A stretch of DNA of 64,000 bases from Magnetococcales bacterium (GTDB taxonomy: Bacteria; Pseudomonadota; Magnetococcia; Magnetococcales; JADFZT01). This document shows positions 40,698 through 59,551 of the stretch, one piece after another. Numbering within the stretch: position 1 is the first letter of the stretch; each line of letters starts with the position of its first letter. Where the stretch lies: contig JADFZT010000003.1 in NCBI GenBank assembly GCA_015232395.1, positions 62,001 through 126,000 on the forward strand. The letters run 5' to 3'. The translations under genes were made by a program, and so were the position numbers. The notes under the pieces are model-generated. The model was given only the letters and a program-made list of their open reading frames with translations. It made no database searches and was not told where the DNA came from.

Positions 40698-42383
40698 TCA
40701 TGATTTGGCATTTCGATAGTGCTGAAGCCAGTCGACAATTCCCTCCAGATGCTCCCGGGCCTTGTTTCGATCAGAGTTGCGGGCTGCCAACACCATCCGC
40801 AAAACCTCCCGGCGCAGGGCTTCATCACCAAACAACCCGGCACACTTTTTAAGCCATTGGGCGGGTAGATCAGTGGCGAGGGGATTCCCCCCCTCCATGG
40901 CGACAAGAAATCGACCGATTTCTCGCTCCATCGCCTCTGGAAAGGTATCCAAAGTCAATGTTTCCGGGTCCGCCTCCTGGGAACCATGGGAGAGGGGTGA
41001 GCCAAGCTCCTCCGGTGACAGCGGCACCTCATCAGCAAACAGTTGGTCCGCCTCTTCCCCATCGGCCACTTCCAGGGAGATATCCAGATAAAAACAGGAT
41101 CCGCCGCTCTCCTGGTTTTCATACCCCACCTCCCCCCCCAGCCGTTCGGCCAGACGTTTGGCCAGGCTCAAGCCGATACCGGTACCGCCATATTTTCGGG
41201 TGGTGCCGCCATCCCCCTGGGTAAACTGTTGGAAAAGAAGTGCCTGTCTTTCCGGAACAATCCCAATACCGGAATCAATCACTGCAAACCGTAAGAAGAG
41301 ATGATCAGAGGGAGGCGTCCCCTCTGAGAGCGTCGATTCCAGTTCGGAAACCTCTACACGAACCCCTCCCGCTTCGGTAAATTTAACGGCATTGCCAATC
41401 AACTGGGACAAAATTTCCCGGATCCGTCGGACATCCCCCACCAGCCGATCCCCCACTTTCGGATCCACCTGATAAAAAAATGAAAGCCCCTTCTCTTCTG
41501 CCCGCTCCAAAAAGGGCTGGATAAAACCCTTGAGGCTTTCCCGAAGAGCAAATGGATGGTTTTCCACCTTGAGGGAGCCGGTCTCCAGACGGGCAAAATC
41601 AAGCAGGCTGTTGAGAAGGTTCATCAAGGAGTCAGCTGCTGAGCGGACAATGTCCAGATTTTCCTGCTGATCGGCGTTGAGTTCCGACATCAAAACCAGA
41701 TCGGTCATGCCGATAATGGCATTCATGGGGGTGCGCCATTCATGGCTCAGATTGGAGATAAAGGTGTTTCGAGCCCGGTTGGCATCCTCCAAATCCCGGG
41801 TCCGTTCCAAAACCTTTTCCTCCAACTGCTCATTCAAAAGTCGCAATTCCGTTTGCAACTGATTCAACTCACGATTTTTTCGTACCGCACTTTCATACGT
41901 CGAGAGGAGTAAATTCAGGGTCCGGCGGCGGGTTGCCTTGATCAGATGGATCTCACCGGCAAAGTTGACCTTCAAGCCATCCTCGTCACCGGCATCCGTC
42001 TCATCCGAAGGGGCTTCCATCAGATAGCGGATGCGTGAGAGGAGATCATCAGGGTCGAAAGGCTTGGTGAGATAATGATCCGCTCCAGCGCTCAAGCCCC
42101 GAATCACCTCTTTGGGATCATCAAGCCCGGTCAAAAGCATCACCGGAATGTTGGCCAAAGCTTGATCCCGCTTGATCTCCCGACACATCTGATAGCCATC
42201 CATCTCAGGCATGGCCACATCACTGATCACCAAGCGTGGTATATGGGTCCGGGCCAGCTCCAATCCCTCCAAACCATTTTTCGCTCCCAGAGGGGTAAAT
42301 CCAGCCTCCCGCAGGAGTCTCTCCAAAACCACCCGTTGGGTGGCGGAGTCCTCAACGACCAGTATGGACTCAGCCTTTTTCAT
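40698..42383 (-). CDS. REC-HisKA-HATPase hybrid kinase with pseudo-HPt tail
   Basis: A 561-aa soluble kinase at the end of the second che cluster, overlapping cheB by 4 bp (ATGA). The receiver (about 5-122) has LVISDVAMPEMDG. The linker IKATRRRTLNLLLSTYESAV and a coiled coil lead to HisKA with H214 (SHEWRTPMNAI) and an HATPase (DSGIGIV, GTGIGLSL). The last about 90 residues align with HPt domains (AQWLKKCAGLFGDEAL), but the phospho-histidine position is Q509. As the gene after cheB it takes the place of WspR, so the CheA probably phosphorylates its receiver; that is inference. The kinase domain looks intact. Confidence 0.9.
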   Translation of the reverse strand: MKKAESILVVEDSATQRVVLERLLREAGFTPLGAKNGLEGLELARTHIPRLVISDVAMPEMDGYQMCREIKRDQALANIPVMLLTGLDDPKEVIRGLSAGADHYLTKPFDPDDLLSRIRYLMEAPSDETDAGDEDGLKVNFAGEIHLIKATRRRTLNLLLSTYESAVRKNRELNQLQTELRLLNEQLEEKVLERTRDLEDANRARNTFISNLSHEWRTPMNAIIGMTDLVLMSELNADQQENLDIVRSAADSLMNLLNSLLDFARLETGSLKVENHPFALRESLKGFIQPFLERAEEKGLSFFYQVDPKVGDRLVGDVRRIREILSQLIGNAVKFTEAGGVRVEVSELESTLSEGTPPSDHLFLRFAVIDSGIGIVPERQALLFQQFTQGDGGTTRKYGGTGIGLSLAKRLAERLGGEVGYENQESGGSCFYLDISLEVADGEEADQLFADEVPLSPEELGSPLSHGSQEADPETLTLDTFPEAMEREIGRFLVAMEGGNPLATDLPAQWLKKCAGLFGDEALRREVLRMVLAARNSDRNKAREHLEGIVDWLQHYRNAKS

Positions 42384-43510
42384 GTTTGGATGCCCCGTCC
42401 CGGCTTCGTGCTTGTGGTGTGTGACAGACCGGTGTTGATCTGAACCGATTTCATCAAAAAGGGAGCTATATCCGTCACCGGCAGCACCACCCGGGCCGCC
42501 CCCAGCTCAATGGCCTGTTTGGGCATACCGAAAACCACCGACGAAGCCTCATCCTGGGCGATGGTCATGCCTCCGGCTTTGTAAATGGAGAGCAGCCCTT
42601 CCGCCCCATCCTTGCCCATACCGGTGAGCAGTACTCCCAGAGTCGACCGCCCGAAACGCCTGGCAGCTGAATGGAAAACCACATCCACAGAAGGACAATG
42701 ACCCAACTGAGCATTGGGGATCATGCCCAGATCAGCAGGGCCGGGGATGGCAAACTGTCCCTCCCGATCCACAACCAAATGGCTGCGTTCCGGTGGAAAA
42801 TAGATCACGCCAGCCTGAGGCCTCTTCCCCACCTGTGCGATCTCCACCGGCATTTTGCAATGGCTTTTCATCCAGGAGATCATCTCCTCCAAAAAACCAA
42901 AGCTGATGTGCTGAACGCAGAGAATGGGGGTGGGAAAACGGGCTGGCAGAGAGGATAAAATGGTTAACAGTGCCTGGGGTCCGCCGGTGGAAGCACCAAT
43001 GACCACCAGACGTATGGGCGTTTTGACCTGACCCTTGGAGAGCGATGGGGATGGACTCTTTTTTTCCGGAAGAGAGGCATAGCGGCTGGCGTGGCGGCTG
43101 ATGGGCACCACCCCGGAAATAATTTTGATTTTACGAACAAATTCCTGGGCCAGGACACTCTCATCGGCAACGGTCAATCCGCCCCGGGGTTTGGGAAAGA
43201 CATCTACCGCCCCCGCTTCCAGAAGTTCGAAAATATTGTGCTCGTTGGTTTTTTCCTGAACCGAAACACTCACCACCAGAATGGGCAGGGGATGGCGGGC
43301 CATAATCTGCCGGGTCAGCTCCCACCCATCCATTTTGGGCATATGCAGATCGGTACAGACCACGTTAGGCTTCAAATGATTGATCTGGGAGAGCGCTTCA
43401 ATGCCGTTGGCAGCGGTGCCCACCACCTTGATACCCGGCTCGTTTTTGAGCATTCGCTGCAAAACGGTCAGTGCTATCAGGGAGTCATCCACCAAAAGAA
43501 CCCGAATCAC
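42380..43510 (-). CDS. cheB: CheB protein-glutamate methylesterase/deamidase (cluster 2)
   Basis: A 376-aa CheB with GTG start overlapping the cheA stop by 4 bp. The receiver (about 1-120) has VCTDLHMPKMDG. After a basic linker the catalytic domain (about 170-355) keeps all three active residues: Ser in VIGASTGGPQAL, His in CVQHISFGF and Asp in TGMGKDGAEG. The C-terminus overlaps the next kinase gene by 4 bp. It is a paralogue of the CheB at 13464-14534 and the functional contrast to the esterase-dead CheB domain at 53596-56058. Confidence 0.94.
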   Translation of the reverse strand: MIRVLLVDDSLIALTVLQRMLKNEPGIKVVGTAANGIEALSQINHLKPNVVCTDLHMPKMDGWELTRQIMARHPLPILVVSVSVQEKTNEHNIFELLEAGAVDVFPKPRGGLTVADESVLAQEFVRKIKIISGVVPISRHASRYASLPEKKSPSPSLSKGQVKTPIRLVVIGASTGGPQALLTILSSLPARFPTPILCVQHISFGFLEEMISWMKSHCKMPVEIAQVGKRPQAGVIYFPPERSHLVVDREGQFAIPGPADLGMIPNAQLGHCPSVDVVFHSAARRFGRSTLGVLLTGMGKDGAEGLLSIYKAGGMTIAQDEASSVVFGMPKQAIELGAARVVLPVTDIAPFLMKSVQINTGLSHTTSTKPGRGIQT

Positions 43511-46065
43511 ACAATTCTCCTCAAGGTATCCAGAAAGGTTTTCTGGTCAAATGTGGGTTTGGTGATGTAGGCATTGGCCCCCACTTCCATGCCCTTACGC
43601 ATATCCTCTTCCGAGGAGAGAGAGGTAACCAGAATCACAGGCAGTTCCTGATAGGCTTTGTTGGAACGAATGCGATGGGTCAGATCGAGGCCGTCCAGGT
43701 TGGGCATCTGAACGTCGGAGACCACGCCATCGAAGGGACGCCTGCCCAGCTGGGTCAAGGCATCCAGGCCATCTACCGCCACCACGACATCATATCCAGC
43801 ACTCTCCAGAATCCGTTTTTCCTGGGTACGGGTGGTGATGGAATCCTCTACCAAAAGAATGGATTGCCTCCTCTCCTGGTCGGCAACCTCCTCCTCCGAA
43901 CCCGACTCCCCCCCTCTGGCGCCCAGATGAGCGATGGTGCGTTTTTGAATGGTTTTGATGAGATCCTGGGGGTTGAGCACCATACACACCTCCCCAGAGC
44001 CCAAAATCGTTGCCCCCGAAACATTGCGAACCCGTTTCAGGATCGCCCCATGGGGTTTTAACACCACTTCCTGTTCGTCCAAAAGCTCATCCACAAACAC
44101 CCCCAACCGCTCCTCTCCATAGCGGATGACCAGACAGGGGGTCAGGGGAGAGGGGTCCAAGGAGACCAGATGAGGGGGAAGATCCAGCAGATCCCCCAGA
44201 TGCGCCACAGAGACCGGCTCATTATTAAGATCAATGGTATCCCGACCATCAATGGGAAAGACCGAATCCAAAGGAATCCGTCGTACCGTCTCGACATAAT
44301 CCAGGGGAATGGCAAAGGTGCACTTGCGGGCAGAAACGATAAAAACCGGCGTCGTCGCCAGGGTGATTGGCAGACGAATGGTAAACAGACAACCCGCACC
44401 AGCCTCTGAATCCACCTGAATGGAACCCTTCAGCCGCTCGACGTTGTTGCGTACCACATCCAGCCCGACACCTCGCCCAGAGACATCGGTGACCATGGCC
44501 GAGGTGGAAAAACCAGAGGAAAAAATCACCGACTTGAGCTGGGACATGGAGAGGGTTTCGGCCTCAGCTGGGGAATAAAGGCCATTTTTGACCGCCACCC
44601 GGCGCAAGGCATTGGGATCAAGCCCACGGCCATCGTCGATCACCTCGATCACCACATGGGTAGCGGTTCTGGAAGCTTTAAGCCGAACTGTGCCTAAGGG
44701 GGGTTTGCCCGCCTGCTGCCGCTCCCGAGGCATTTCCAGAGCGTGATGCACAGCATTGCGGATCATGTGCATCAAGGGACTTTTCATCTCCTCGATCACC
44801 CGCTTATCCGCCGTGGTATCCCCCCCTTCCAGGATCAATTCCACCTGTTTGCCCAGCTGCCTGGCCAAATCCCGAACCATGCGGGGATAGAGGTTGAAGA
44901 TGGTGGAAAGAGGCAAAAGACGCAGATTGCGAATCCCCTCCTCCAACTCCCGGGCCACCATGTCCAGACCCGCTTCATCCTCAAAAACCGCATGACGCAG
45001 TTGGTGCAGACCGGCCCCCAACCGATCCAGATTGCTCTCCCCACCCTCTCCACCATTCAAACCATGGCCATCGGCAGCGTGGACTTCCCGCAGGCTCGTT
45101 TCCCAAAGAGCAATCGCCTCTTCGATCTCCGTGAGCCGCCGTTTGACCCGGGTCTTGACCACCGTGAGTTCCCCAGCCTGATTCAACAGCTGGTCAAGTC
45201 GGCGAGGTTCCACCCGGATGGTATCGACTCGATAGGACTCTTCATCGACAGGGCGCTGGCTACTCTCTCCAGAACCTGAACGTTGGCTGCTCTCTTCAGA
45301 GTCTGAGGCCGCTGGAGTGGCAGAAGAAACGTGCTGAGAACCCGGTTCTGATCTCTGGACCTCCACCACCGGGGTCGGCGCTTGTACTTCCACCACCGGG
45401 GCTGGCGCTTGTACTTCCACCACCGGGGCTGGCGCTTGTACTTCCACCACCGGGACTGGCGCTTGTACTTCCACCACCGGGGCCTGAACCTGGACCTCTA
45501 CCACCGGGGCCGGGGCCTGAACTTCCACCACCGGGGCTGGCGCTTGTACTTCCACCACCGGGGCCTGCACTTCAACGACTGGCGCTTGAATGTCCACCAA
45601 TGGGGGTGCGGATTGGGCTGGGGGTGTTTGATCGACCAGAGGAGGGGGTGAAATCGTCTCGGGTGGGGCTGGCGGAGCTGTTTTTTTAGCCCCTTTCCCC
45701 TCCATCCGGGCCAGGGCGTCGGTGATGGAGACCCCAGCTGGCTCACCGGTGACCGCCTCATGCACCAAAACCCGGATGTCATCCAGCCCCCCCATCATGT
45801 GGTCTACCACATCAGGGGTAAAAACCGTTTCCCCCCTGGAGGCTGCTCCCAGGACATCTTCAAAACGGTGAGCCAACGTCTCAACGTCGCCCACCCCCAG
45901 CATCCGCGCTGAACCTTTGAGGCTGTGGGCCTCACGGAACGCCTCCTTGAGCACCCCCTTGTCATCGGGATGCTTCTCCAGATGGAGCAGGGATTCGTCC
46001 AGCTTTTGGAGATGCTCTTCACTCTCCGCCTGGAACAGTTCCCTCAGTTCGACGTCTTCAATCAT
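43507..46065 (-). CDS. CheA-REC hybrid histidine kinase (cluster 2)
   Basis: An 852-aa kinase. ATG 46065 has GGAGAGAGG upstream; TTG 46077 is less likely. HPt (about 1-115) has H47 in REAHSLKGSARM. A long linker (about 135-270) contains nine PVVEVQ repeats. Dimerisation helices and an HATPase follow (LMHMIRNAVHHALE, DDGRGLD, SGRGVGLDVV), then a CheW domain and a C-terminal receiver (GVVSDVQMPNLDG, IVLV-type start SILLVEDSITTRT). It is organised like the CheA at 10618-13215 and WspE. It lies between the Cache receptor (31 bp upstream) and cheB (overlap). Confidence 0.94.
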   Translation of the reverse strand: MIEDVELRELFQAESEEHLQKLDESLLHLEKHPDDKGVLKEAFREAHSLKGSARMLGVGDVETLAHRFEDVLGAASRGETVFTPDVVDHMMGGLDDIRVLVHEAVTGEPAGVSITDALARMEGKGAKKTAPPAPPETISPPPLVDQTPPAQSAPPLVDIQAPVVEVQAPVVEVQAPAPVVEVQAPAPVVEVQVQAPVVEVQAPVPVVEVQAPAPVVEVQAPAPVVEVQAPTPVVEVQRSEPGSQHVSSATPAASDSEESSQRSGSGESSQRPVDEESYRVDTIRVEPRRLDQLLNQAGELTVVKTRVKRRLTEIEEAIALWETSLREVHAADGHGLNGGEGGESNLDRLGAGLHQLRHAVFEDEAGLDMVARELEEGIRNLRLLPLSTIFNLYPRMVRDLARQLGKQVELILEGGDTTADKRVIEEMKSPLMHMIRNAVHHALEMPRERQQAGKPPLGTVRLKASRTATHVVIEVIDDGRGLDPNALRRVAVKNGLYSPAEAETLSMSQLKSVIFSSGFSTSAMVTDVSGRGVGLDVVRNNVERLKGSIQVDSEAGAGCLFTIRLPITLATTPVFIVSARKCTFAIPLDYVETVRRIPLDSVFPIDGRDTIDLNNEPVSVAHLGDLLDLPPHLVSLDPSPLTPCLVIRYGEERLGVFVDELLDEQEVVLKPHGAILKRVRNVSGATILGSGEVCMVLNPQDLIKTIQKRTIAHLGARGGESGSEEEVADQERRQSILLVEDSITTRTQEKRILESAGYDVVVAVDGLDALTQLGRRPFDGVVSDVQMPNLDGLDLTHRIRSNKAYQELPVILVTSLSSEEDMRKGMEVGANAYITKPTFDQKTFLDTLRRIV
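45355..45588 (-). repeat. 27-bp tandem repeats encoding PVVEVQ units in CheA
   Basis: About nine degenerate in-frame copies of a unit containing GCTTGTACTTCCACCACCGG on the plus strand. They encode APAPVVEVQ-type repeats that form an extended linker between HPt and the kinase core. Copies vary between 21 and 27 bp. Confidence 0.9.
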
Positions 46066-46096
46066 GCCTCTCTCCAACCCTTATTTCTCAGGCCAA

Positions 46097-48250
46097 TCAG
46101 ACCATGTTCCTGAGTACTTGGGCGGCGTCATTGAGGGTCTGGATGCCGGTTTTGATCTGGCCTACCCCCGAAGAGGTCTCCTTGGCTCCCGTATTCAAGG
46201 ATTTCATCGCCTCCACGACCTGCTTGATCGCTACCGACTGTTGGCGAACGTTCATGGAGATCTGCTGGGCGCTTTCAGCCGCAGCATTGACCGACTCAGC
46301 CACCTCACGGAAGGTTTCAGCGGTGTTTTGAGCGATGAGTACCCCCTGCTCTACGGTTTTGGTGCCTTCATCGGTCACCATCACCGTGGTGTTGGTGGCC
46401 TTTTGAATTTCACCCACCAGATCGTTGATCCGGGCAGCGGAACGTTTGGACTCATCCGCAAGCTTGCGGGTTTCCACCGCCAACACCGAAAACCCCTTGC
46501 CGTGCTCCCCGGCCCGAACGGCCTCGACGGCGGCATTCATGGCAAGCATTTTGGTTTCGTTGGCAAACTCGGAGACCGTATCGGTGATATCCCGAATCTG
46601 CCCGGTGCGCTCGGAAAGCTTCAAGATTTCCCGTCCAATCGCCTCCACCTTGGAACGCGTCCCTCCCATCTCCTCCAACATCTCCTCCACACGGCCCATG
46701 CCATGCTCAGCCAACTCCAGGGCCTTTTGCGCCCCGGATGCAGCCGAATCAGCCTGTTCGGAAGATTGTCTGGCAGAGGTGCCCAGCTCCTCCATGGTGG
46801 TGTTGGTTTCATTGACCGAAACCGCCTGTTGCGCCGAAACCCGCTCCTGCTGGTTGACGGTGGTGGCTATTTCAGCGGATGAGGTGGAGACCACGTTGAT
46901 GATTTCGTTCAGGGGACGGCTGATGGAACGGGCAAAATACCACCCCACAGCCACCACCACCACGCTACAGATAATGCCCAAAATCCACATCATCCGATTG
47001 AGATTATTGAGCGCTTTATAGGCCTCCTGCTGGCTGATGGTGGCGATGAGCGCCCATTTACTCCCCCCCGGCATGCGAATGGGCGCATGGGCCAAAAGCA
47101 CCTCATTGCCCAGATAATCCACCGTATTCTCTTCCAGGTCGGTCTCTCCGGTCAGGGCCTCCTCAACGTGCTCGGTCTTAAAACTCAGAATACCGATGAC
47201 TGTTTTGTGGACCTGGATCTTCTCCAGATCCTGGTCAGAAATATGGCTGTTTTTCAAGCTGGAGAGAAAATCGTCCTGATCCTGAATCAGATAACGGGAG
47301 TTGGAGCGAAATTTAAAATCAGGGCCAACCAAAAAACTCTCCCCGCTCTTGCCCAGTCCGGTTTTTTCCCAACGACCATCGTTGGTCATGATGCCGTCGA
47401 TACGGGAGATGGGCATCTGGAAGATCAGGATACCGCTCTTTTTGCCGTCATCGTTGTAGATGGGAGAGGCGATAAAGGCGGCTGGAGCGTTATAGGAGGG
47501 AGGATAGGGCTCAAAATCAGCCAGATAGACGCTTTCACCGGCATTGGCAGCCAGGGCCTGTTTGAACACCCGGCCCAAATTGGTATTGCTGTAGGGGCCA
47601 TCACTCAGACGGGTGGCAAAGTCCACCTCCTTGAAAACCGAATAGATGATGTGGCCGCTATCGGGCTCCACCAGAAATAGATCGTAATAGCCGAATTTAT
47701 CAACAAAATTACGCAAAACCGGATGGAACTGGCCATGGAGGCGGCTGTATTCGGAATGGTCCCGGGAGGTATCAAGCTTGTGTTTTTCCCCCACGGGATA
47801 GGGATTGGTCGAGATGTAGAGATGTTGCAGAATACGACTCACCCGATTGCGGGGCCACCAGAGGGAGAGGGCGTTGTCGGGGGCGTTGTCGGTATCGGAT
47901 TCCTGCTGCACATAACGCGCCCGCAGACGCTCTTCGTTCTCTTTGAGGTTTTGATCATACCCCAGCCCCACCTCCTCTTCCGCAGCGAAAAAAGCCCCGG
48001 TGAGTCCCTCCATGGCCTCGACAATCATGATATCCTCGGAGAGGGTCAGCACCTGGTTGTTGATCACCTGAAAATAGCGATTGATCTCGGCCTGCTTGGA
48101 CTCCCGGATCAGGGCAAGACGGTTAAAGGCATCCTGCTGCAAGGCTTCGCTGCTGGTTTGGTAGGCATAGAGCCCTACAAACATGAATGGCCCCAAACCC
48201 ATCAGCAAAAACAATCCGATCAATTTGGTGGACAGTCGCATCTTCCCCAT
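46097..48250 (-). CDS. Methyl-accepting chemotaxis protein with Cache sensor domain (cluster 2)
   Basis: A 717-aa receptor (ATG 48250, GGGGGAGAG upstream). TM1 is at about 12-30. The extracytoplasmic part (about 40-405) contains a Cache module akin to those of the receptor at 21031-23967: GYYDLFLVEPDSGHIIYS, YSNTNLG, AAFIASPIYN. TM2 (about 415-437, ILGIICSVVVVAVGWYFA) leads into a HAMP-like segment and an MCP hairpin with [21 protein letters not shown]. No C-terminal docking pentapeptide is seen (VLRNMV). It sits between the double CheW and CheA genes and is the only receptor of cluster 2. The ligand is unknown. Confidence 0.93.
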   Translation of the reverse strand: MGKMRLSTKLIGLFLLMGLGPFMFVGLYAYQTSSEALQQDAFNRLALIRESKQAEINRYFQVINNQVLTLSEDIMIVEAMEGLTGAFFAAEEEVGLGYDQNLKENEERLRARYVQQESDTDNAPDNALSLWWPRNRVSRILQHLYISTNPYPVGEKHKLDTSRDHSEYSRLHGQFHPVLRNFVDKFGYYDLFLVEPDSGHIIYSVFKEVDFATRLSDGPYSNTNLGRVFKQALAANAGESVYLADFEPYPPSYNAPAAFIASPIYNDDGKKSGILIFQMPISRIDGIMTNDGRWEKTGLGKSGESFLVGPDFKFRSNSRYLIQDQDDFLSSLKNSHISDQDLEKIQVHKTVIGILSFKTEHVEEALTGETDLEENTVDYLGNEVLLAHAPIRMPGGSKWALIATISQQEAYKALNNLNRMMWILGIICSVVVVAVGWYFARSISRPLNEIINVVSTSSAEIATTVNQQERVSAQQAVSVNETNTTMEELGTSARQSSEQADSAASGAQKALELAEHGMGRVEEMLEEMGGTRSKVEAIGREILKLSERTGQIRDITDTVSEFANETKMLAMNAAVEAVRAGEHGKGFSVLAVETRKLADESKRSAARINDLVGEIQKATNTTVMVTDEGTKTVEQGVLIAQNTAETFREVAESVNAAAESAQQISMNVRQQSVAIKQVVEAMKSLNTGAKETSSGVGQIKTGIQTLNDAAQVLRNMV

Positions 48251-48349: not shown

Positions 48350-49411
48350 TTATACTGTTTCGTTGACGGAAAGCTCTTCGCTCCCCAACACCTTTTCCAG
48401 ATTGAGGAGGCTGAACATTTCCTCCTCATAGCGAGCCGCACCCTTTAAAAAGTCCTTTTTCAAGGTGCCCACGGCAGAGGGTGCCCGGGTGATTTCCGAA
48501 GGGGACAAGTGGATCACATCCACCACATCATGCACCAACACCCCCACGGTAATCTCCCCCACCACCGCCACCAAGGCCATGGCAGGAGGGGAATCGGGCA
48601 AGGGGGGAATCCCCAAAAATCCCGATATTTCCACCATGGTCAGGATTTCACCCCGCAGATTCATCGAGCCGACGATATGATCAGGACAGCAGGGAATCGG
48701 CGTCACCTGCCGAAGCTGGGTAAAACCTCGAACGATGTCGAGACCAATCCCCAGCCGCTCGCCATACAACTCCACCACTGCCAAAGAGGCCAAGCCCTCC
48801 ATGACCTGCTCATCCAGAGCACGCATCAGGCGTTTGGCCCGTTCCCGAAAAACCCCTCTCTCGGACTCAGTAGCCTCCGGGTTGAACAGCCGGGGCTCAG
48901 CCAGCAGCTCCAACTCCGTCTCTTCAGACTCCTCCTCACCCCCTTCCCCTGGATCCCCTCCCAGGGGAATAAAACGGAACAGCCGTGCCGCATCCAGGAG
49001 CATCACCATCTCTTCGCCGTCGATGGCGACCCCGGTGATAAATTTTTGCTGACGTCGGGATTCAAATTCGCCAAAAGCCGGGGCTTGGTCCACCTCCCCC
49101 TCCCCCAGAACCCGCACTTCCAGGACTTCATTGACCACCAGCCCCAACCCCCGATCCGGCCCATCCAAGACCAGGATGGCATCGGTCAAACGATAGGGTT
49201 TGGTATGGCACCCCATCCGAATATTGAGATCCATCACCGGAATCACCTGCCCCCGCAGGTTGAGCACGCCGACGATATAGGGAGGGGCCTCCTCCATGGG
49301 GGTGATCTCCGGCAGCCGGACAATCTCCCGCACCAGAGTGGCATTGACCCCGTAGAGCTTACCGGTCAGGCTGAAAACCAGATGGGAACCTTGATCCAGG
49401 GAATGGTCCAT
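48350..49411 (-). CDS. Double CheW-domain coupling protein
   Basis: A 353-aa protein with two CheW domains (about 10-155 and 205-335) joined by an acidic Glu/Gly-rich linker. The first has YIVGVLNLRGQVIPVMDL and the second HIVGSMNLRGEILTMVEI, the canonical CheW core. The second is preceded by the helix RERAKRLMRALDEQ, which also precedes the CheW at 6121-6711. Cluster 1 has the two CheWs as separate genes, so this looks like their fusion. Start ATG 49411 is chosen; a GTG at 49453 is possible, and neither has a good SD. Confidence 0.88.
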   Translation of the reverse strand: MDHSLDQGSHLVFSLTGKLYGVNATLVREIVRLPEITPMEEAPPYIVGVLNLRGQVIPVMDLNIRMGCHTKPYRLTDAILVLDGPDRGLGLVVNEVLEVRVLGEGEVDQAPAFGEFESRRQQKFITGVAIDGEEMVMLLDAARLFRFIPLGGDPGEGGEEESEETELELLAEPRLFNPEATESERGVFRERAKRLMRALDEQVMEGLASLAVVELYGERLGIGLDIVRGFTQLRQVTPIPCCPDHIVGSMNLRGEILTMVEISGFLGIPPLPDSPPAMALVAVVGEITVGVLVHDVVDVIHLSPSEITRAPSAVGTLKKDFLKGAARYEEEMFSLLNLEKVLGSEELSVNETV

Positions 49412-49546
49412 GGAGAGAGCCAAAGCCTTTCTGATGGAAAAACACCCTACCACTCAAGACAAAATGACAGGTTAATTTAGTGTTATTACGAACTATTTAC
49501 AATTAAATTCCAATTTTCCAAAAAGAAGCGACCTCCTCACAACCTG

Positions 49547-49642: not shown

Positions 49643-51223
49643 TCACTCCCTATTTTTTTCTCCCAACATCCCTTCCACTTGAGCAACCAACGCCCCAGCC
49701 GTCCACTCCTCATAGGTCTCAATGCTGGCATCATCCGGCAAACTGCGTAGCAGCTCCAAAGCGGACTGGCGCATTTTTTGAGCCCGTGGGAGATCCCCCC
49801 GCCGCTGATAGATCGCCCCCAACTCCAAAAAGGCCGGAATGTGGGTTGGGTCCAGATAGATCACCTTATTCAACAACTCCCTGGCCTCTCCATCCTGCCC
49901 CTGCTCCTCAAGAATATGGGCCAAAAGGTAAAGGGGCGCGGCGTTGAAGCCATCCACCTGCATCGCCTGGCGGCAACACCCTTCTGCCGCCCGTCGATCC
50001 CCCAGGTTGGCGTGACAGCGGGCCAACAGATGGAGCAGACCAAAATGATTCGATGACTGTTTTAATCCCCGCTTGGCTCGGGCGGCGGACTCGGCATAGG
50101 CCCCCCGCCCAAAAAGATCCGACGCCTCTGCAAAAAGCCCCTCCACATCCGGCGATTTGGCAATCCCTTTGGGAGTCGGCTTGGCAGAAGTCGAACGGCC
50201 TCCCTTCCAGGGCTGGGCAGTGGTTTTTTTCGAGGTGCTGACAGGCTTTTTGGACCATGAACCCACCCCCCCCTTGAATCCCGCTTTTTCCGACTTGAAG
50301 GGAGGAGGAGAAGCCAGAGGAACCTCCGAAGAGGGAAAAGAAGGGAAGTCCGCAGCCAACGATTCCAGGGGACGCTGAAACACCACCGACTCGGGAAAGG
50401 TTTTCAACACCAAGCCACTCTCCCCCCGGGTGGCGGCCTGACGTACCTCGGGGGAAAGCTCGGCATGACCGGTCATAAGATATCCCCCGGGACGCAGGGT
50501 CTGGGCAAATTTAGTCATCAACCGGGCAACGGTCTCCTGATCAAAATAGATAAAAACGTTACGGCAGACGATCAGATCCATCTCCCGCAAATCTCCGACA
50601 ATACCTGGAAAACCATCGCGAATCAGGTTGATTCGGGAAAACTTGACCCGCTTACGGATCCGCTCAACAAGTTGCCACTCCTCTTTGACCCGCTGGAAAT
50701 AAACATCCAACAGGTCTTTATCCATCCCCCGGAACGACCACGGACCATAGATCCCCTGACGGGCTGTTTTCAGAGCGGTACCGTTGATATCACTCCCCAA
50801 GATAAACACCCCCGACTTATCCAAGGTCAGGGAGAGACTCTCCAGCATCATCGCCAGGGTGTAGGGTTCCTCCCCGGTGGAGCAACCCGCACTCCAGATC
50901 CGCAATGGTTTGTTGGGAGAACGTTTGGCCAGCAGTTCCGGCAGGAGGGTGCGTTTGAGCAGGGCCATCTGCCCCGCATCCCGGAAAAAATAACTCTCTC
51001 CAATCGTCAGCTCCAACACCAACTCCCGCCACTCCATTTCGCTCTCATGGGTGGGGGTTTCCAGCAGGGAGAGATAAAGCTCGGGACCGGAAAAGCCGAA
51101 ACGCCGGGTGCGCAGCCGGATCTGTTTAGCAAGCAGGAGATAGTCGGGCTCAGGAATAATCAGGCCGGTATGCCGTGCGATCAACTGACTGAAGCGTTCC
51201 AGCAGGGCACTGTCCAAGGTCAA
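49643..51223 (-). CDS. CheR methyltransferase with C-terminal TPRs (cluster 2)
   Basis: A 526-aa WspC-like methyltransferase. The CheR core has GESYFFRDAGQ, RIWSAGCSTGEEPYTLAM and IVCRNVFIYFDQETV, with the canonical SAM loop that is altered in the cluster 1 paralogue. A basic/Ser-rich linker (about 290-365) precedes three or more TPRs (about 370-500: RCHANLGDRRAAEGCCRQAM, ILEEQGQDGEARELLNKVI). Translation starts at a TTG overlapping the TGA of metF (TTGA), as no other start fits the domain. It methylates receptor glutamates, using SAM that derives from MetF-made methyl groups. Confidence 0.92.
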   Translation of the reverse strand: MTLDSALLERFSQLIARHTGLIIPEPDYLLLAKQIRLRTRRFGFSGPELYLSLLETPTHESEMEWRELVLELTIGESYFFRDAGQMALLKRTLLPELLAKRSPNKPLRIWSAGCSTGEEPYTLAMMLESLSLTLDKSGVFILGSDINGTALKTARQGIYGPWSFRGMDKDLLDVYFQRVKEEWQLVERIRKRVKFSRINLIRDGFPGIVGDLREMDLIVCRNVFIYFDQETVARLMTKFAQTLRPGGYLMTGHAELSPEVRQAATRGESGLVLKTFPESVVFQRPLESLAADFPSFPSSEVPLASPPPFKSEKAGFKGGVGSWSKKPVSTSKKTTAQPWKGGRSTSAKPTPKGIAKSPDVEGLFAEASDLFGRGAYAESAARAKRGLKQSSNHFGLLHLLARCHANLGDRRAAEGCCRQAMQVDGFNAAPLYLLAHILEEQGQDGEARELLNKVIYLDPTHIPAFLELGAIYQRRGDLPRAQKMRQSALELLRSLPDDASIETYEEWTAGALVAQVEGMLGEKNRE

Positions 51224-52158
51224 GCACCGGCGGGGGCATCACCCCCGGAAGAGGTGGCAGATGGGGCCGCGTCAGCCTGGAACCCCAAGGCATCCAAAAT
51301 CTGGGAAACCGGGCCTTGTTGGTTCAACGTGAAAAAATGCAGTCCCGGCGCCCCACCGTCCAGGAGCTCCCGACACTGTCGAACCGCCAACTGAATGCCC
51401 GCTGCCTTCATTTGGGCCGGATCTCCCTGAAGCCGCTCCATGGTGGAAGTCAACCAACCGGGCAAGGCTGAACCACACAGTTGGGCCAGGCGACGGATCT
51501 GTTTATAATCAGTCACCGGCATGATCCCTGGAATGATGGGAATGTTGATCCCCTCTTTACGACACGCTTCGACAAAGCTGAAATAGGCGCTGTTCTCGAA
51601 AAAAAACTGGGTCACGGCAAACGCAGCCCCGGCTTCCACCTTGCGGCGAAAATGGCTCAGATCGGTTTGGGCATCCGCAGCCTCCGGGTGCACCTCCGGA
51701 TAAGCAGCCACCCCCACCCGAAAATGGGGATATTTTTCCCGGATAAAGGCGACAAAACCATCCGCATAACGAAAAGCCCCCCGCTCCAACGCCCCTTGGG
51801 GCATATCCTGGGGCTGATCCCCCCGCAGGGCGAGCAGGTGGGTAATGCCGTGGCTGTCGATGGTGTCAAGAACCGCTGTCAGGGCCTTCGCGTCATCCCC
51901 CACACAGGTCAGGTGCGCCACGGTCTCAACATCTATCCCCCGAACCACATCCCCCATCAACTCCAGAGTCCGCTGCCGACTGCCCCCCCCGGCGCCATAG
52001 GTGATGGAGACAAACTCCGGACCATAACGGGCCAGGCCGTTGACCGCCTTCCAAAAGGCCGGCTCCTTTTCTTTAAGCTTGGGGGGGAAAAATTCAAAGG
52101 AAATACCCGCCCCAGCCACACCGCCCGTGGGCGCTTTTCCCTGGATAATCTTCTCCAT
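51220..52158 (-). CDS. metF: 5,10-methylenetetrahydrofolate reductase
   Basis: A 312-aa flavoenzyme that reduces methylene-THF to 5-methyl-THF for methionine synthesis. ISFEFFPPK carries the conserved active-site Glu, followed by FVSITYGAGGGSRQRTLE, HLTCVG, LLALRGDQP and VTQFFFEN, all in family order. ATG 52158 has AGAGGAA 6 bp upstream; the GTG 18 bp further up is less likely. Its stop overlaps the cheR start by 4 bp, an unusual pairing of folate metabolism with receptor methylation. It is the first gene of the cluster 2 transcription unit. Confidence 0.95.
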   Translation of the reverse strand: MEKIIQGKAPTGGVAGAGISFEFFPPKLKEKEPAFWKAVNGLARYGPEFVSITYGAGGGSRQRTLELMGDVVRGIDVETVAHLTCVGDDAKALTAVLDTIDSHGITHLLALRGDQPQDMPQGALERGAFRYADGFVAFIREKYPHFRVGVAAYPEVHPEAADAQTDLSHFRRKVEAGAAFAVTQFFFENSAYFSFVEACRKEGINIPIIPGIMPVTDYKQIRRLAQLCGSALPGWLTSTMERLQGDPAQMKAAGIQLAVRQCRELLDGGAPGLHFFTLNQQGPVSQILDALGFQADAAPSATSSGGDAPAGA

Positions 52159-52285
52159 CGATTCCTCTTGTTCCACCAGACACCCCCCTCAATCAAGGTG
52201 CACCCGGTATGATCTCTCTCTGGTTTGCCTTCGGGGGAGCCATCCAGCCAACGCCATCAACCCCATTCAGACCCTCTATCCAGCG

Positions 52286-52342: not shown

Positions 52343-52756
52343 CTACTCCGGCAATTCGCTCAAGGTCCAATAGATGCTGATGGTGCGGATGACATCTACA
52401 AATTGGATATAATCCACCGGTTTGACCATATAGCCCGCCACCCCCAGATCAAAGCTTTTCACCCGGTCCAGCTCATCCTTGGAGGTGGTCAAAATCACCA
52501 CTGGAATTCTTTTTTTGGCCGGATCCTTTTTGACTACCTCCAAAAACTCCAGCCCATTCATCCGTGGCATATTGAGATCCAGCAGGATGATACAGGGCCA
52601 GGGGTTTTCCTTGTCATCCAGCCAAGCCACCGCCTCCTCGCCGTTACCGACCCTGAAGAGGGGATTGGTGACATGGATCTTTTTCAAGGCCCGCTTGACG
52701 GTCATCGCATCCACCCGGTCATCTTCCACCAGGAGAATGGGTTGCGTGGCATTCAT
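52343..52756 (-). CDS. Stand-alone response regulator receiver (Rcp1-type)
   Basis: A 137-aa single receiver: acidic pair in ILLVEDDRVD, acceptor Asp in IILLDLNMPRMNG, Thr in VILTTSKD and Lys in MVKPVDY. The spacing with extra residues after the Asp loop (KKDPAKKRIPVVIL) and the length match Rcp1-type regulators that pair with phytochrome-like kinases. It follows the small kinase gene by 12 bp, with a good SD (AGGAG). It has no output domain and so acts as a phosphate relay or by protein contact. It is not a typical CheY. Confidence 0.9.
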   Translation of the reverse strand: MNATQPILLVEDDRVDAMTVKRALKKIHVTNPLFRVGNGEEAVAWLDDKENPWPCIILLDLNMPRMNGLEFLEVVKKDPAKKRIPVVILTTSKDELDRVKSFDLGVAGYMVKPVDYIQFVDVIRTISIYWTLSELPE

Positions 52757-52768
52757 GACAGCTCCTTC

Positions 52769-53599
52769 CTAAGAGGCCTCCCGGGCCAGGGTAAAATAAA
52801 AAGTGCTCCCCTCTCCCGGTGCCGATTCCAGCCAAACCCGCCCCCCGTGGAGGGCGACGATTTTTTTGACCAGGGTGAGCCCCACACCGGTGGATTCATA
52901 TTCGTCACCACCCTGGAGGGTCTGAAAAATTTGAAAAATCCGCTCGTGATCCTTTTTGGGGATGCCGGGACCGTTATCGGTGACAGAAAATCGATAATGG
53001 CTCTCCCCTTCCGCCTCCCAGGCGACCTCCACCAAACCGGCCTCCTTGTCCATATATTTGATCCCATTGGACAATAGATTCTGAAAAATCTGCCCCAGAC
53101 GGGTCTTTTCACCGGTAATGGCAGGCATCTCATCGGGGATGGTGATTTGAATGTGTCCGGGCGGACTCAAACTATCGATCACCTCCACCAGCAGCTTGTG
53201 GAGGTTGACCGGCACAATCGCCTCCCGCATGCGACCGATACGGGAATATTGCAGCACCCCGTTGATCAGGCTCTCCATGCGTTTTACCCGGCTGATGATC
53301 AGGCCCATCTGCTCCTGGCCATCCTCATCCAACACATCCTCATAATCTTCCGAAAGCCACTGCACCAGAGAGTTGATGGCCCGCAAAGGGGCCTTGAGAT
53401 CATGGGAGACCACATAGGCGAACTCCTTCAACTCCTGATTGGAACTCTCAAGCTCGGCAATGAGCTGCCTCTCCCGCTCCCCACCAGCCGCAGCCAGGCG
53501 GGCCTCCAGCTCAGCAATTCTGCGACGAGCCTGGATGAGTTCCGCCTGTGGACCCTCACCAGCCGCCGTGGCATCGGTCACGTCATTGTCACCACTCAT
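52769..53599 (-). CDS. Small histidine kinase (phytochrome-type HisKA-HATPase)
   Basis: A 276-aa kinase without a recognised sensor domain. A short coiled coil (about 15-55) leads to HisKA with H66 in YVVSHDLKAPLRAI. The HATPase (about 155-275) has NGIKYMDKE, DNGPGIP and STGVGLTLV, then GGRVWLESAPGEGSTFYF. It begins at an ATG overlapping the stop of the CheB-REC-kinase fusion (ATGA). Its DHp and ATPase domains are close to those of that fusion, so the two are probably a tandem duplication. With the following REC gene it makes a kinase-regulator pair. Confidence 0.92.
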   Translation of the reverse strand: MSGDNDVTDATAAGEGPQAELIQARRRIAELEARLAAAGGERERQLIAELESSNQELKEFAYVVSHDLKAPLRAINSLVQWLSEDYEDVLDEDGQEQMGLIISRVKRMESLINGVLQYSRIGRMREAIVPVNLHKLLVEVIDSLSPPGHIQITIPDEMPAITGEKTRLGQIFQNLLSNGIKYMDKEAGLVEVAWEAEGESHYRFSVTDNGPGIPKKDHERIFQIFQTLQGGDEYESTGVGLTLVKKIVALHGGRVWLESAPGEGSTFYFTLAREAS

Positions 53600-56058
53600 G
53601 ACCTTTTCACCCCTTCACCCCCCTGTTGTTTTTGGGTATCGGATAGCTTGGGAAGGGTAAAATGAAATTGGCTTCCCTCCCCGAGTTGTGAAGTAATCCA
53701 GATACGCCCGCCATATTTTTCGACAATTTTCCGGACCAGAGCCAGCCCCACTCCCGGGGTTTCCAGCTCATCCCGGGCCTGGAGAGTCTGAAAAATCTTG
53801 AATATCTTTTCGAAATATTTTTCATCAATCCCCGGACCGTTGTCCGCCACCTCAAACTGCCAACCCGCCCCCTCCGCCCGCCCGGTCACCCGAATCTCTC
53901 CCAGAGGTTTGTCCATAAAGCGCACACCGTTGTCGATCAGATTGAAAAAAATCTGCCGGGCCCGTCTTTCATCAAAATGAATGGTGGGTAGTGGGGAATC
54001 CAGGCGGACCTCCAGCTCTTCCGGCAGGCTCAACCCCTTGACGACACTCTTGACCAGGCGGTTGAGATCGATCGCTTTGACCTCATCCTCCACCCGGTTG
54101 ACCTTGGTATATTCCAGGAGGGAATCGATCAATCGGTTGATCCGGTCAGCCCGACCTGCGAGCAGTTGCAGCAGATCCCGGCCATCCATATCCAACTGCT
54201 CGGCATAGTCGTTGACCAGCCAGTTGGTGAGGGAGCCGATGGCTCTGAAGGGTGCCTTGAGATCGTGGGAGACGATATAGGCAAAATCATCCAGCTCCCG
54301 GTTGGCTTCCTTCAACTCTGCCATGGTCACCAGCCTGCGGGCCTCCACCTTTTTTCGCTCCTCGATCTCATCGGCCAGCTGCTTGTTGAGGGACTCCTGC
54401 TTGACCGACTGATCCACCAGCTGGAGATTCAACATTTTCAGCTCCAGCTGGCTATCGGTGAGCTGTTTGTTTTGCTGAACCGCCTTTTGGTAGGTGGACA
54501 ACAGGAGGTTCAATATCTGCCAGCGGGAGGAGTTGATGGTAAATTTACGCCCCTCAAACTCAATATCCATCGCCTTGCGCCGGTCATCCACACCGGCGTG
54601 AGGAGAAGTCAAAATATCAACACTGGAAAGAAGATGGGCCTCCTCCCACGGCTTGGTCAGATAGTTGTCCGCACCAGCTCCCAAACCCTCCAAAATTTCA
54701 CCGGGATTGGTCAATGCCGTCACCAAAATAACCGGGATGGCACCGATTTCCGGATGGGATTTGACCCTGCGACAGAGCTCAAAACCATCCATACGGGGCA
54801 TGGAAACGTCGCTGACAATGATCTGAGGCCGCACCTCAAGGGCCTTTTCCAAACCCTCCACGCCATCTTTGGCCACGGTCACGTCAAAACCGGATCGAAC
54901 CAAAAACCGCTTGAGCTTGAAGGCCTGGGTGGGGCTATCCTCGACAATCAGGACTGAAATGCCCCTCTTGGGTACTTCAGAGGGGGTCTCGCTACGAGCC
55001 TCTCCCCGCCTCTCCTGACGCCCCACCACCAGATCCAGCAAACCCCGAGGCAAGGCCGCACCCGGCAGCATGTGAGTAACCGACCCCTGCTCCTTTGCCT
55101 TTCCAGGCAGATCAAACAACAGCGCCGAGGATTGATCCTGGGCCAGGGTCACCCCCCCCGCCCGATAGATCGCCTCCATTCCCAACAAGCCATCCCGACC
55201 ACTGCCGGAGAGCAATACCCCAACCACCCTGGCACCCAACCGGTTGGCCATCGATTCCATGGTGACGGTAATGGAAGGACGACACCCCTCCACCGGCGGG
55301 GCCTGGGAGGTGGTGAGGTGTCCCTTGGCATCCAGGCTGAGATGTTGCCCCCGGGGTGGAAAATAGACCGATCCGGCCATGGCCACCTCGCCGTGGGTGG
55401 CTTTTTGAACCGGCAGGTCGGTGTGCTGCCCCACCCAATCGACAAAATCTTCCTGAAAGTCGGGATCCAGATGCTGAACACAGAGAATGGGGACGGGAAA
55501 ATCGCTGGGCAGCCCGGCCAAAAGATCCTTGAAAGCCTGAACCCCCCCAAGCCCGGCCCCCACCACCACCCCCTTGATCCCGTCATGGCGATCAAGAACG
55601 GGATATTCGGTTGCAGTCGGGGGTTTGGGAATAATGGGGGTCAAACCTGCCAAAGATTTAATCTTGGCCGCCAGATCCCGGGAAAAGGCATCGCCACCCT
55701 GGGAGCCCCAGGCCATGGTCTTGGGCAAAAAATCGAGAGCCCCCGCCTCAAACAGCGGAAAAAGGTTGCGCCGTTCGGCATCGCTTCCCGAGAGGCTCAC
55801 CACCAGAATGGGCCGGGGAAAGCGGGTCATCACCTGATGGGTAAAAGCCAGGCCATCCATCATCGGCATGTGCATGTCGGTGCAGATCACCTGAGGATCC
55901 CGCTCAGGGATAAGCGCCAGGGCTGTCTCCCCATCCCGAGCTTCCCCCACCACCTCGATTTCCGGGTGTTTGGCCAACCCCCGACGGGTCAAGGCGAGGG
56001 CGACGGGGGAATTTTCCACCAGGAGCACACGAATCGTCTTTTTCACGGCATCAGACAC
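53596..56058 (-). CDS. REC-CheB(esterase-dead)-REC-histidine kinase fusion
   Basis: An 820-aa four-module protein. REC1 (about 8-125) keeps VICTDMHMPMMDG. A full CheB-like domain (about 160-350) follows with His in VQHLDPDF and Asp in SGSGRDGLLG, but the nucleophile motif is VGAGLGGVQA: G169 replaces the catalytic Ser of GASTGG. REC2 (about 370-490) has IIVSDVSMPRMDG. The linker INSSRWQILNLLLSTYQ, a coiled coil, HisKA with H598 (YIVSHDLKAPFRAI) and an HATPase (DNGPGID, TPGVGLALV) follow. GTG 56058 has GAGGGG upstream. It probably senses receptors or methylation state without demethylating. It overlaps the next kinase gene by 4 bp. Confidence 0.9.
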   Translation of the reverse strand: MSDAVKKTIRVLLVENSPVALALTRRGLAKHPEIEVVGEARDGETALALIPERDPQVICTDMHMPMMDGLAFTHQVMTRFPRPILVVSLSGSDAERRNLFPLFEAGALDFLPKTMAWGSQGGDAFSRDLAAKIKSLAGLTPIIPKPPTATEYPVLDRHDGIKGVVVGAGLGGVQAFKDLLAGLPSDFPVPILCVQHLDPDFQEDFVDWVGQHTDLPVQKATHGEVAMAGSVYFPPRGQHLSLDAKGHLTTSQAPPVEGCRPSITVTMESMANRLGARVVGVLLSGSGRDGLLGMEAIYRAGGVTLAQDQSSALLFDLPGKAKEQGSVTHMLPGAALPRGLLDLVVGRQERRGEARSETPSEVPKRGISVLIVEDSPTQAFKLKRFLVRSGFDVTVAKDGVEGLEKALEVRPQIIVSDVSMPRMDGFELCRRVKSHPEIGAIPVILVTALTNPGEILEGLGAGADNYLTKPWEEAHLLSSVDILTSPHAGVDDRRKAMDIEFEGRKFTINSSRWQILNLLLSTYQKAVQQNKQLTDSQLELKMLNLQLVDQSVKQESLNKQLADEIEERKKVEARRLVTMAELKEANRELDDFAYIVSHDLKAPFRAIGSLTNWLVNDYAEQLDMDGRDLLQLLAGRADRINRLIDSLLEYTKVNRVEDEVKAIDLNRLVKSVVKGLSLPEELEVRLDSPLPTIHFDERRARQIFFNLIDNGVRFMDKPLGEIRVTGRAEGAGWQFEVADNGPGIDEKYFEKIFKIFQTLQARDELETPGVGLALVRKIVEKYGGRIWITSQLGEGSQFHFTLPKLSDTQKQQGGEGVKRS

Positions 56059-56064
56059 CAATCG

Positions 56065-59364
<3,300 letters not shown>

Positions 59365-59551
59365 AACCCCCGCCAAATTTGTTTGAAGAGCCCACGAGTT
59401 GCAAAGTTTACGCTTTCCCACGCTCAGCGAAAAGTACCAATCGCCAAAAGCCATTCATTTGATCGATGCCTCCCAAAATATTCAATCCCTCCTCGCCCGC
59501 TTTGCCCTCGATCACCTCTCCCATATTCCCAGGCTCTCTCACCCAGTCGGA

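Follow-up and report, generated by a model that had tools for sequence, protein, structure and literature searches.

The window (the whole stretch of 64,000 nucleotides that was analysed, from a genome of the order Magnetococcales) carries a chemosensory operon on its minus strand, the features of which are collected in Table 1. One of its genes encodes a protein of 821 aa from a TTG start; a GTG start at position 56058 is equally possible, and it underlies the coordinates and residue numbering (G169) of an earlier note on this DNA. The order of domains proposed there, REC-CheB-REC-HisKA-HATPase, was borne out by Pfam (Response_reg, CheB_methylest, Response_reg, HisKA and HATPase_c). The CheB_methylest domain (PF01339, residues 165-338) scored 165 bits against a cut-off of 24. 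The better scoring of the two Response_reg stretches is that at residues 370-481 (REC2, as opposed to the N-terminal REC1), and the kinase part comprises HisKA (590-654) and HATPase_c (697-805). The G+C content is 60.9% in the REC1-CheB half and 54.1% in the REC2-kinase half of the same ORF.

Table 1. Features of the fusion gene and of the surrounding operon (positions in the window)
Feature	Position	Strand	Evidence or remark
REC-CheB(putative pseudo)-REC-HisKA-HATPase fusion	53596..56061	-	ORF, Pfam, orthologues
REC1, about residues 8-118	55708..56040	-	D62 and K114 kept, acid pair E-N
CheB methylesterase-like domain, residues 165-338	55048..55569	-	Pfam, alignment, AlphaFold, Foldseek
Nucleophile position, Gly170 (GGG) in GAGLGG	55552..55554	-	Sequence
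Triad His197, kept	55471..55473	-	Sequence
Triad Asp290, kept; the adjacent Met of GMGxDG is Ser	55192..55194	-	Sequence
REC2 (370-481), canonical; phospho-Asp D418 at 54808-54810	54619..54954	-	Pfam, sequence
Long coiled-coil helix 511-597, joins REC2 to kinase	54271..54531	-	AlphaFold model
HisKA (His599 at 54265-54267) and HATPase_c, motifs intact	53647..54294	-	Pfam, sequence
Upstream REC-PAS-GAF-HK-REC-REC hybrid kinase	56065..59454	-	Most orthologous operons have a relative at this position
Paralogous HisKA-HATPase kinase, sensorless	52769..53599	-	ATGA overlap with fusion
Stand-alone receiver	52343..52756	-	Pfam; candidate output
cheR with TPR tail	49643..51223	-	Pfam, operon comparison
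Double CheW	48350..49453	-	Domain and operon comparison
MCP with Cache-like region	46097..48250	-	No C-terminal pentapeptide tether seen
cheA with C-terminal REC	43507..46077	-	Domain search
Intact unfused cheB (GASTGG), presumed working esterase	42380..43510	-	Pfam, sequence
REC-HK gene, 4 bp overlap with cheB	40698..42383	-	ORF and domain search

The CheB domain aligned over its length with Salmonella CheB, and the correspondence of Ser, His and Asp was set by phmmer alignment to 1chd and 1a2o. The Ser-His-Asp triad is incomplete: as the earlier note had it, Gly stands for Ser in the motif GAGLGG (Gly170 from the TTG start, G169 from the GTG start), His197 and Asp290 are in place, and the unfused CheBs encoded at 42380 and 13464 read GASTGG and ACSTGG. 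The picture of loss given there held for the dead esterase and was incomplete, since REC1 and the Met of GMGxDG are also affected. In REC1, D62 and K114 are present, but Asn takes the place of the second Asp in the acid pair, which probably leaves an impaired receiver. The GAGLGG loop is GxGxxG-like because Ser is replaced by Gly; a dinucleotide-binding Rossmann reading was rejected, as NAD_binding_9 was matched only with an E value of 0.094 (below the cut-off), the second strand ends in His and not in an acid, and the motif is broken in two orthologues (those of genomes G007 and G002).

An AlphaFold2 model, run on 15 aligned orthologues, had a mean pLDDT of 77.9, with mostly 88-96 in the CheB domain, and a long helix (511-597) ahead of the kinase; the overall pTM was 0.46, and the arrangement of the domains in the model is therefore unreliable. 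In a Foldseek comparison with the PDB the CheB domain matched 3sft (TM 0.94) and 1chd (0.88) and the REC-CheB pair matched 6ymz and 1a2o (0.80-0.84), all target-normalised, and the two-domain model resembles the closed CheB of 1a2o. The protein thus shares with the CheB of Salmonella and E. coli (1a2o, 1chd) the fold, the REC-CheB order and the triad His and Asp, but lacks the catalytic Ser and the GMG Met and is joined to REC-HK, with a REC1 that is degenerate in most members. It has the CheB domain (PF01339, 165 bits) and fold (3sft, 1chd) but not the full triad, for which reason it was filed, on its sequence, with the che-cluster hybrid kinases and not with the CheB enzymes.

Homologues were sought in 61 genomes, 48 of them of the same order (including the window's own). 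The fusion was found in 14 of the 48, namely in the window's genome and 13 others. The nucleophile column was readable in 13 fusions (in G039 a contig end cuts it) and holds Gly in 10, Thr in G007, Asp in G002 and Ser in G010, which has the full catalytic triad. A sequencing error or local mutation, which the earlier note would have recognised by homologues mostly carrying Ser, is ruled out, Ser being absent from 12 of the 13 and present in one. The triad His is kept in 12 of the 13 orthologues readable there (not in G002) and the triad Asp in all 14, and none of the 14 retains the Met of GMGxDG. Most orthologues have a degenerate REC1 (Asp replaced by Gly or Asn, Lys lost): the phospho-Asp is missing from 10 of 13 fusions and kept only in G000, G010 and G016, and the complete acid pair together with the phospho-Asp occurs only in G010. 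Despite the loss of the phospho-Asp in most members, the EAGAxDxF segment of REC1 has been retained. REC2 and the kinase boxes are canonical in every fusion readable there; the G018 protein is a REC-CheB-REC that stops after the coiled coil, without the kinase half. Ser is absent from one of 44 distinct unfused CheB domains versus 12 of 13 fusions (Fisher p = 2e-10, shared ancestry ignored). Beyond the order the search covered a sample of the phylum and one genome scan, and not all bacteria. The fusion was not found in 251 genomes sampled from other orders of the phylum, where the CheB and REC-spanning matches listed all had intervening stops and were adjacent genes; the pattern-based scan of genome contigs with the full protein gave kinase or receiver matches only.

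A tree of 41 CheBs, built after removal of the catalytic columns, placed the CheB halves of the fusions in one clade (100/99), and on this evidence from sequence the fusion arose once. G010, with its Ser, is the first to branch off, and the 12 members without Ser form a group (99/94, or 94/88 without long branches), so that a single loss of Ser suffices. The placement of G010 is on a short branch, a pairing of G000 with G010 is not rejected (p-AU 0.16), and a tree from the remaining operon genes did not settle the branching of G000 versus G010. Fusion-free operons of this type occur in G005, G003 and G031; their CheWW-MCP-CheA-CheB order is unchanged, and cheR lies upstream in G005 and G031. 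The operon of G003 carries two tandem unfused cheB genes (L123:14620-15750 and L123:15761-16825), both with Ser, which shows that cheB duplication occurs in this type of operon. The downstream kinase of G010 (L046:2281-3768, minus strand, 496 aa) retains a REC of its own and the others are kinase only, which fits a tandem duplication of REC-HK with later loss of REC elsewhere. G010 might keep Ser for want of an unfused CheB: no orthologue of the latter was found there, but its contig ends inside cheA.

Selection on the domain was estimated in one genus (g17) by a Nei-Gojobori style dN/dS, with dS near 1, which makes the values rough. The median was 0.152 for the dead CheB domain versus 0.159 for the live unfused CheB, and 0.17 for the degenerate REC1 versus 0.10 for a live REC; the likeness of the two CheB values indicates that the domain is maintained under purifying selection. 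The reading frames are open through the CheB domain of the fusions. The proposal of an esterase-dead CheB module on a kinase is thus supported by sequence: the putatively dead module is conserved across families, with a dN/dS like that of live CheB.

The fullest operons have the order hybrid HK, (single REC), fusion, HK, REC, cheR-TPR, double cheW, MCP(s), cheA-REC, cheB and REC-HK; several others are fragmented over contigs. The paralogous kinase is the conserved partner wherever the fusion of the operon has a kinase, and the REC-HK gene beside cheB is the unfused version of the cheB and REC-HK layout of the fusion. The unfused cheB of the operon, in the 12 genomes where it was found, encodes GASTGG and LTGMGxDG in all. 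A C-terminal pentapeptide tether was looked for on the operon MCPs, and none was seen. Of the 48 genomes, the 13 that have a kinase-bearing fusion, and no others, have the stand-alone REC (at least 74% identity); G018 lacks it, and its cluster also has no second kinase. As the genes are neighbours, their co-occurrence does not count as independent evidence. Because the REC follows the kinase-bearing fusions exactly, and REC and second kinase are missing along with the kinase half in G018, we infer that these three form one functional unit. G018 shows that REC-CheB-REC can persist without them. The cluster matches features of the ACF chemosensory class, for which CheR-TPR with REC-HK regulators is typical (PMC3447774). 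The Wsp cluster of that class likewise has CheR-TPR and multidomain REC-HK regulators, but has a REC-GGDEF protein as its output (PMC3447774). The presumed outputs here are kinases together with one receiver, and the pseudo-CheB kinase is an addition. The window's operon also contains metF (methylenetetrahydrofolate reductase, 51220-52176, minus strand), with a 4 bp overlap with the start of cheR; it is absent from the orthologous operons read in other genomes. It may have been inserted by chance, or it could couple the provision of methyl groups to receptor methylation.

Among experimentally characterised systems the closest is CheS3 from the Che3 cluster of Rhodospirillum centenum, in which CheA3 phosphorylates a REC of CheS3, one of the two RECs being dead, and only CheS3~P phosphorylates CheY3 (PMC3868531). 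Both are che-cluster hybrid kinases with two N-terminal RECs followed by HK; in CheS3 one of the RECs can be phosphorylated (PMC3868531), as is probably so in most members here. Both also have a stand-alone CheY partner, here a candidate, and a CheA with a C-terminal REC in the pathway. The layout found here is of this kind, with a canonical REC joined to HisKA/HATPase in a che cluster that also encodes CheA and a stand-alone REC. CheS3, in contrast, is a REC-REC-PAS-HWE kinase with no CheB (PMC3868531), and a second kinase gene accompanies the REC-pseudoCheB-REC-HisKA protein; because the kinase here is HisKA by Pfam and that of CheS3 is HWE, the two are probably analogues rather than members of one family.

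The best explanation of the whole, to which we give an even chance of being right, is that the protein is a CheS3-like hybrid kinase with a pseudo-CheB module held at the array. By analogy with CheS3, phosphate would flow from CheA (43507) to the canonical REC2, the likely phospho-input, which when phosphorylated would switch the HisKA-HATPase core through the long coiled coil; the core and its paralogue (52769) would then phosphorylate the stand-alone receiver (52343). The REC1-CheB half would be a duplicated CheB, fused once to REC-HK, that lost the catalytic Ser after the fusion and in most lineages the phosphorylation of REC1 as well. Its esterase activity is presumably absent, and the removal of methyl groups would be left to the intact CheB (42380). 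Loss of the catalytic Ser in a module otherwise kept intact suggests that the CheB half is now an adaptor and not an enzyme. Retained as a protein-protein module, it would most likely hold the kinase at the receptor-CheA array, the binding place of its ancestor.

Docking of the pseudo-CheB at receptors is plausible. In Salmonella CheB the replacement of the catalytic Ser164 by Ala leaves the affinity for the receptor body unchanged (PMC8609364), and docking without catalysis would therefore be feasible. The binding of free CheB to the receptor body is weak, at about 200 micromolar when activated and 590-850 when not (PMC8609364); given also that the operon MCPs have no tether, docking would need avidity or contact with CheA. 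The earlier note had the module feed methylation state to the kinase, which is not supported: CheB, live or dead, has no significant preference for the 4Q versus the 4E form of the receptor (PMC8609364). A related reading makes the pseudo-methylesterase the sensor of the kinase, with a dead pocket, in which His and Asp remain but no nucleophile, that binds a glutamate of the receptor or its glutamyl-methyl site, or else a small ligand at the new glycine loop, without turnover; the kinase would then read the state or the presence of the chemoreceptor array directly, beside CheA. We consider it distinctly improbable.

The likeness of the two-domain model to closed CheB (1a2o), the EAGAxDxF segment kept despite loss of the phospho-Asp in most members, and the tetherless MCPs would also suit an internal regulatory lid or dimer-shaping module, the closed packing of which modulates REC2 or the coiled coil without receptor contact. 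This is unlikely, though by no means negligible; since G018 keeps REC-CheB-REC without the kinase half, the module must have a role beyond its own kinase, which tells against the main reading as well. The retention in G018 is accounted for if the dead CheB instead competes for sites on the receptor or on CheA with the live CheB (42380) and in this way sets the rate of adaptation, the kinase half having a separate function. The presence of a live CheB in the operon, wherever it could be read, and the wild type-like receptor binding of the Ser-to-Ala CheB (PMC8609364) agree with such competition, but the strict fusion to REC2-HK and the co-occurrence of the stand-alone REC in 13 genomes are left unexplained, and we regard it as quite unlikely.

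Residual demethylation, through another nucleophile or a water activated by His and Asp, might be read into the His kept in 12 of 13 members, the Asp kept in all and the full triad of G010. It is very improbable, as the position of the nucleophile holds Gly, Thr or Asp in different members, the GMGxDG Met is always lost, G002 lacks His too and a live CheB lies in the same operon. Equally hard to credit, and already disfavoured, is neutral decay of a CheB duplicate that persists through being in frame with the kinase: the CheB branches of the fusions are indeed longer than those of unfused CheB from the same genomes (for example 1.4-3.7 versus 0.6-0.8 in G007, G002 and G018), but dN/dS is about 0.15, the frames are open and the fold and Asp are kept.

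Many pseudoenzymes have been described among kinases and proteases, but the open-access literature searched gave no account of an esterase-dead CheB or of a fusion with this architecture. The putatively dead CheB module is ancient and selected, and offers a test case for the reuse of adaptation enzymes as array adaptors for ordinary histidine kinases; the operon predicts partners of the fusion kinase, and the partly active-looking early branch of G010 could allow a stepwise study of the loss of catalysis.

The window's genome encodes further CheBs. An unfused REC-CheB of 391 aa (L010:1465-2637, minus strand, contig C29) is a second one without Ser, with GAENGG (Ser replaced by Glu). The CheB-CheR fusions (L006 and L009) resemble the window protein in having CheB within a larger fusion, but carry CheR and keep Ser, both of which the window fusion lacks. 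The loop of L006 reads GASAGG, and that of L009 (L009:643-2376, minus strand, contig C44) reads GGSADS, without the usual GG after Ser.
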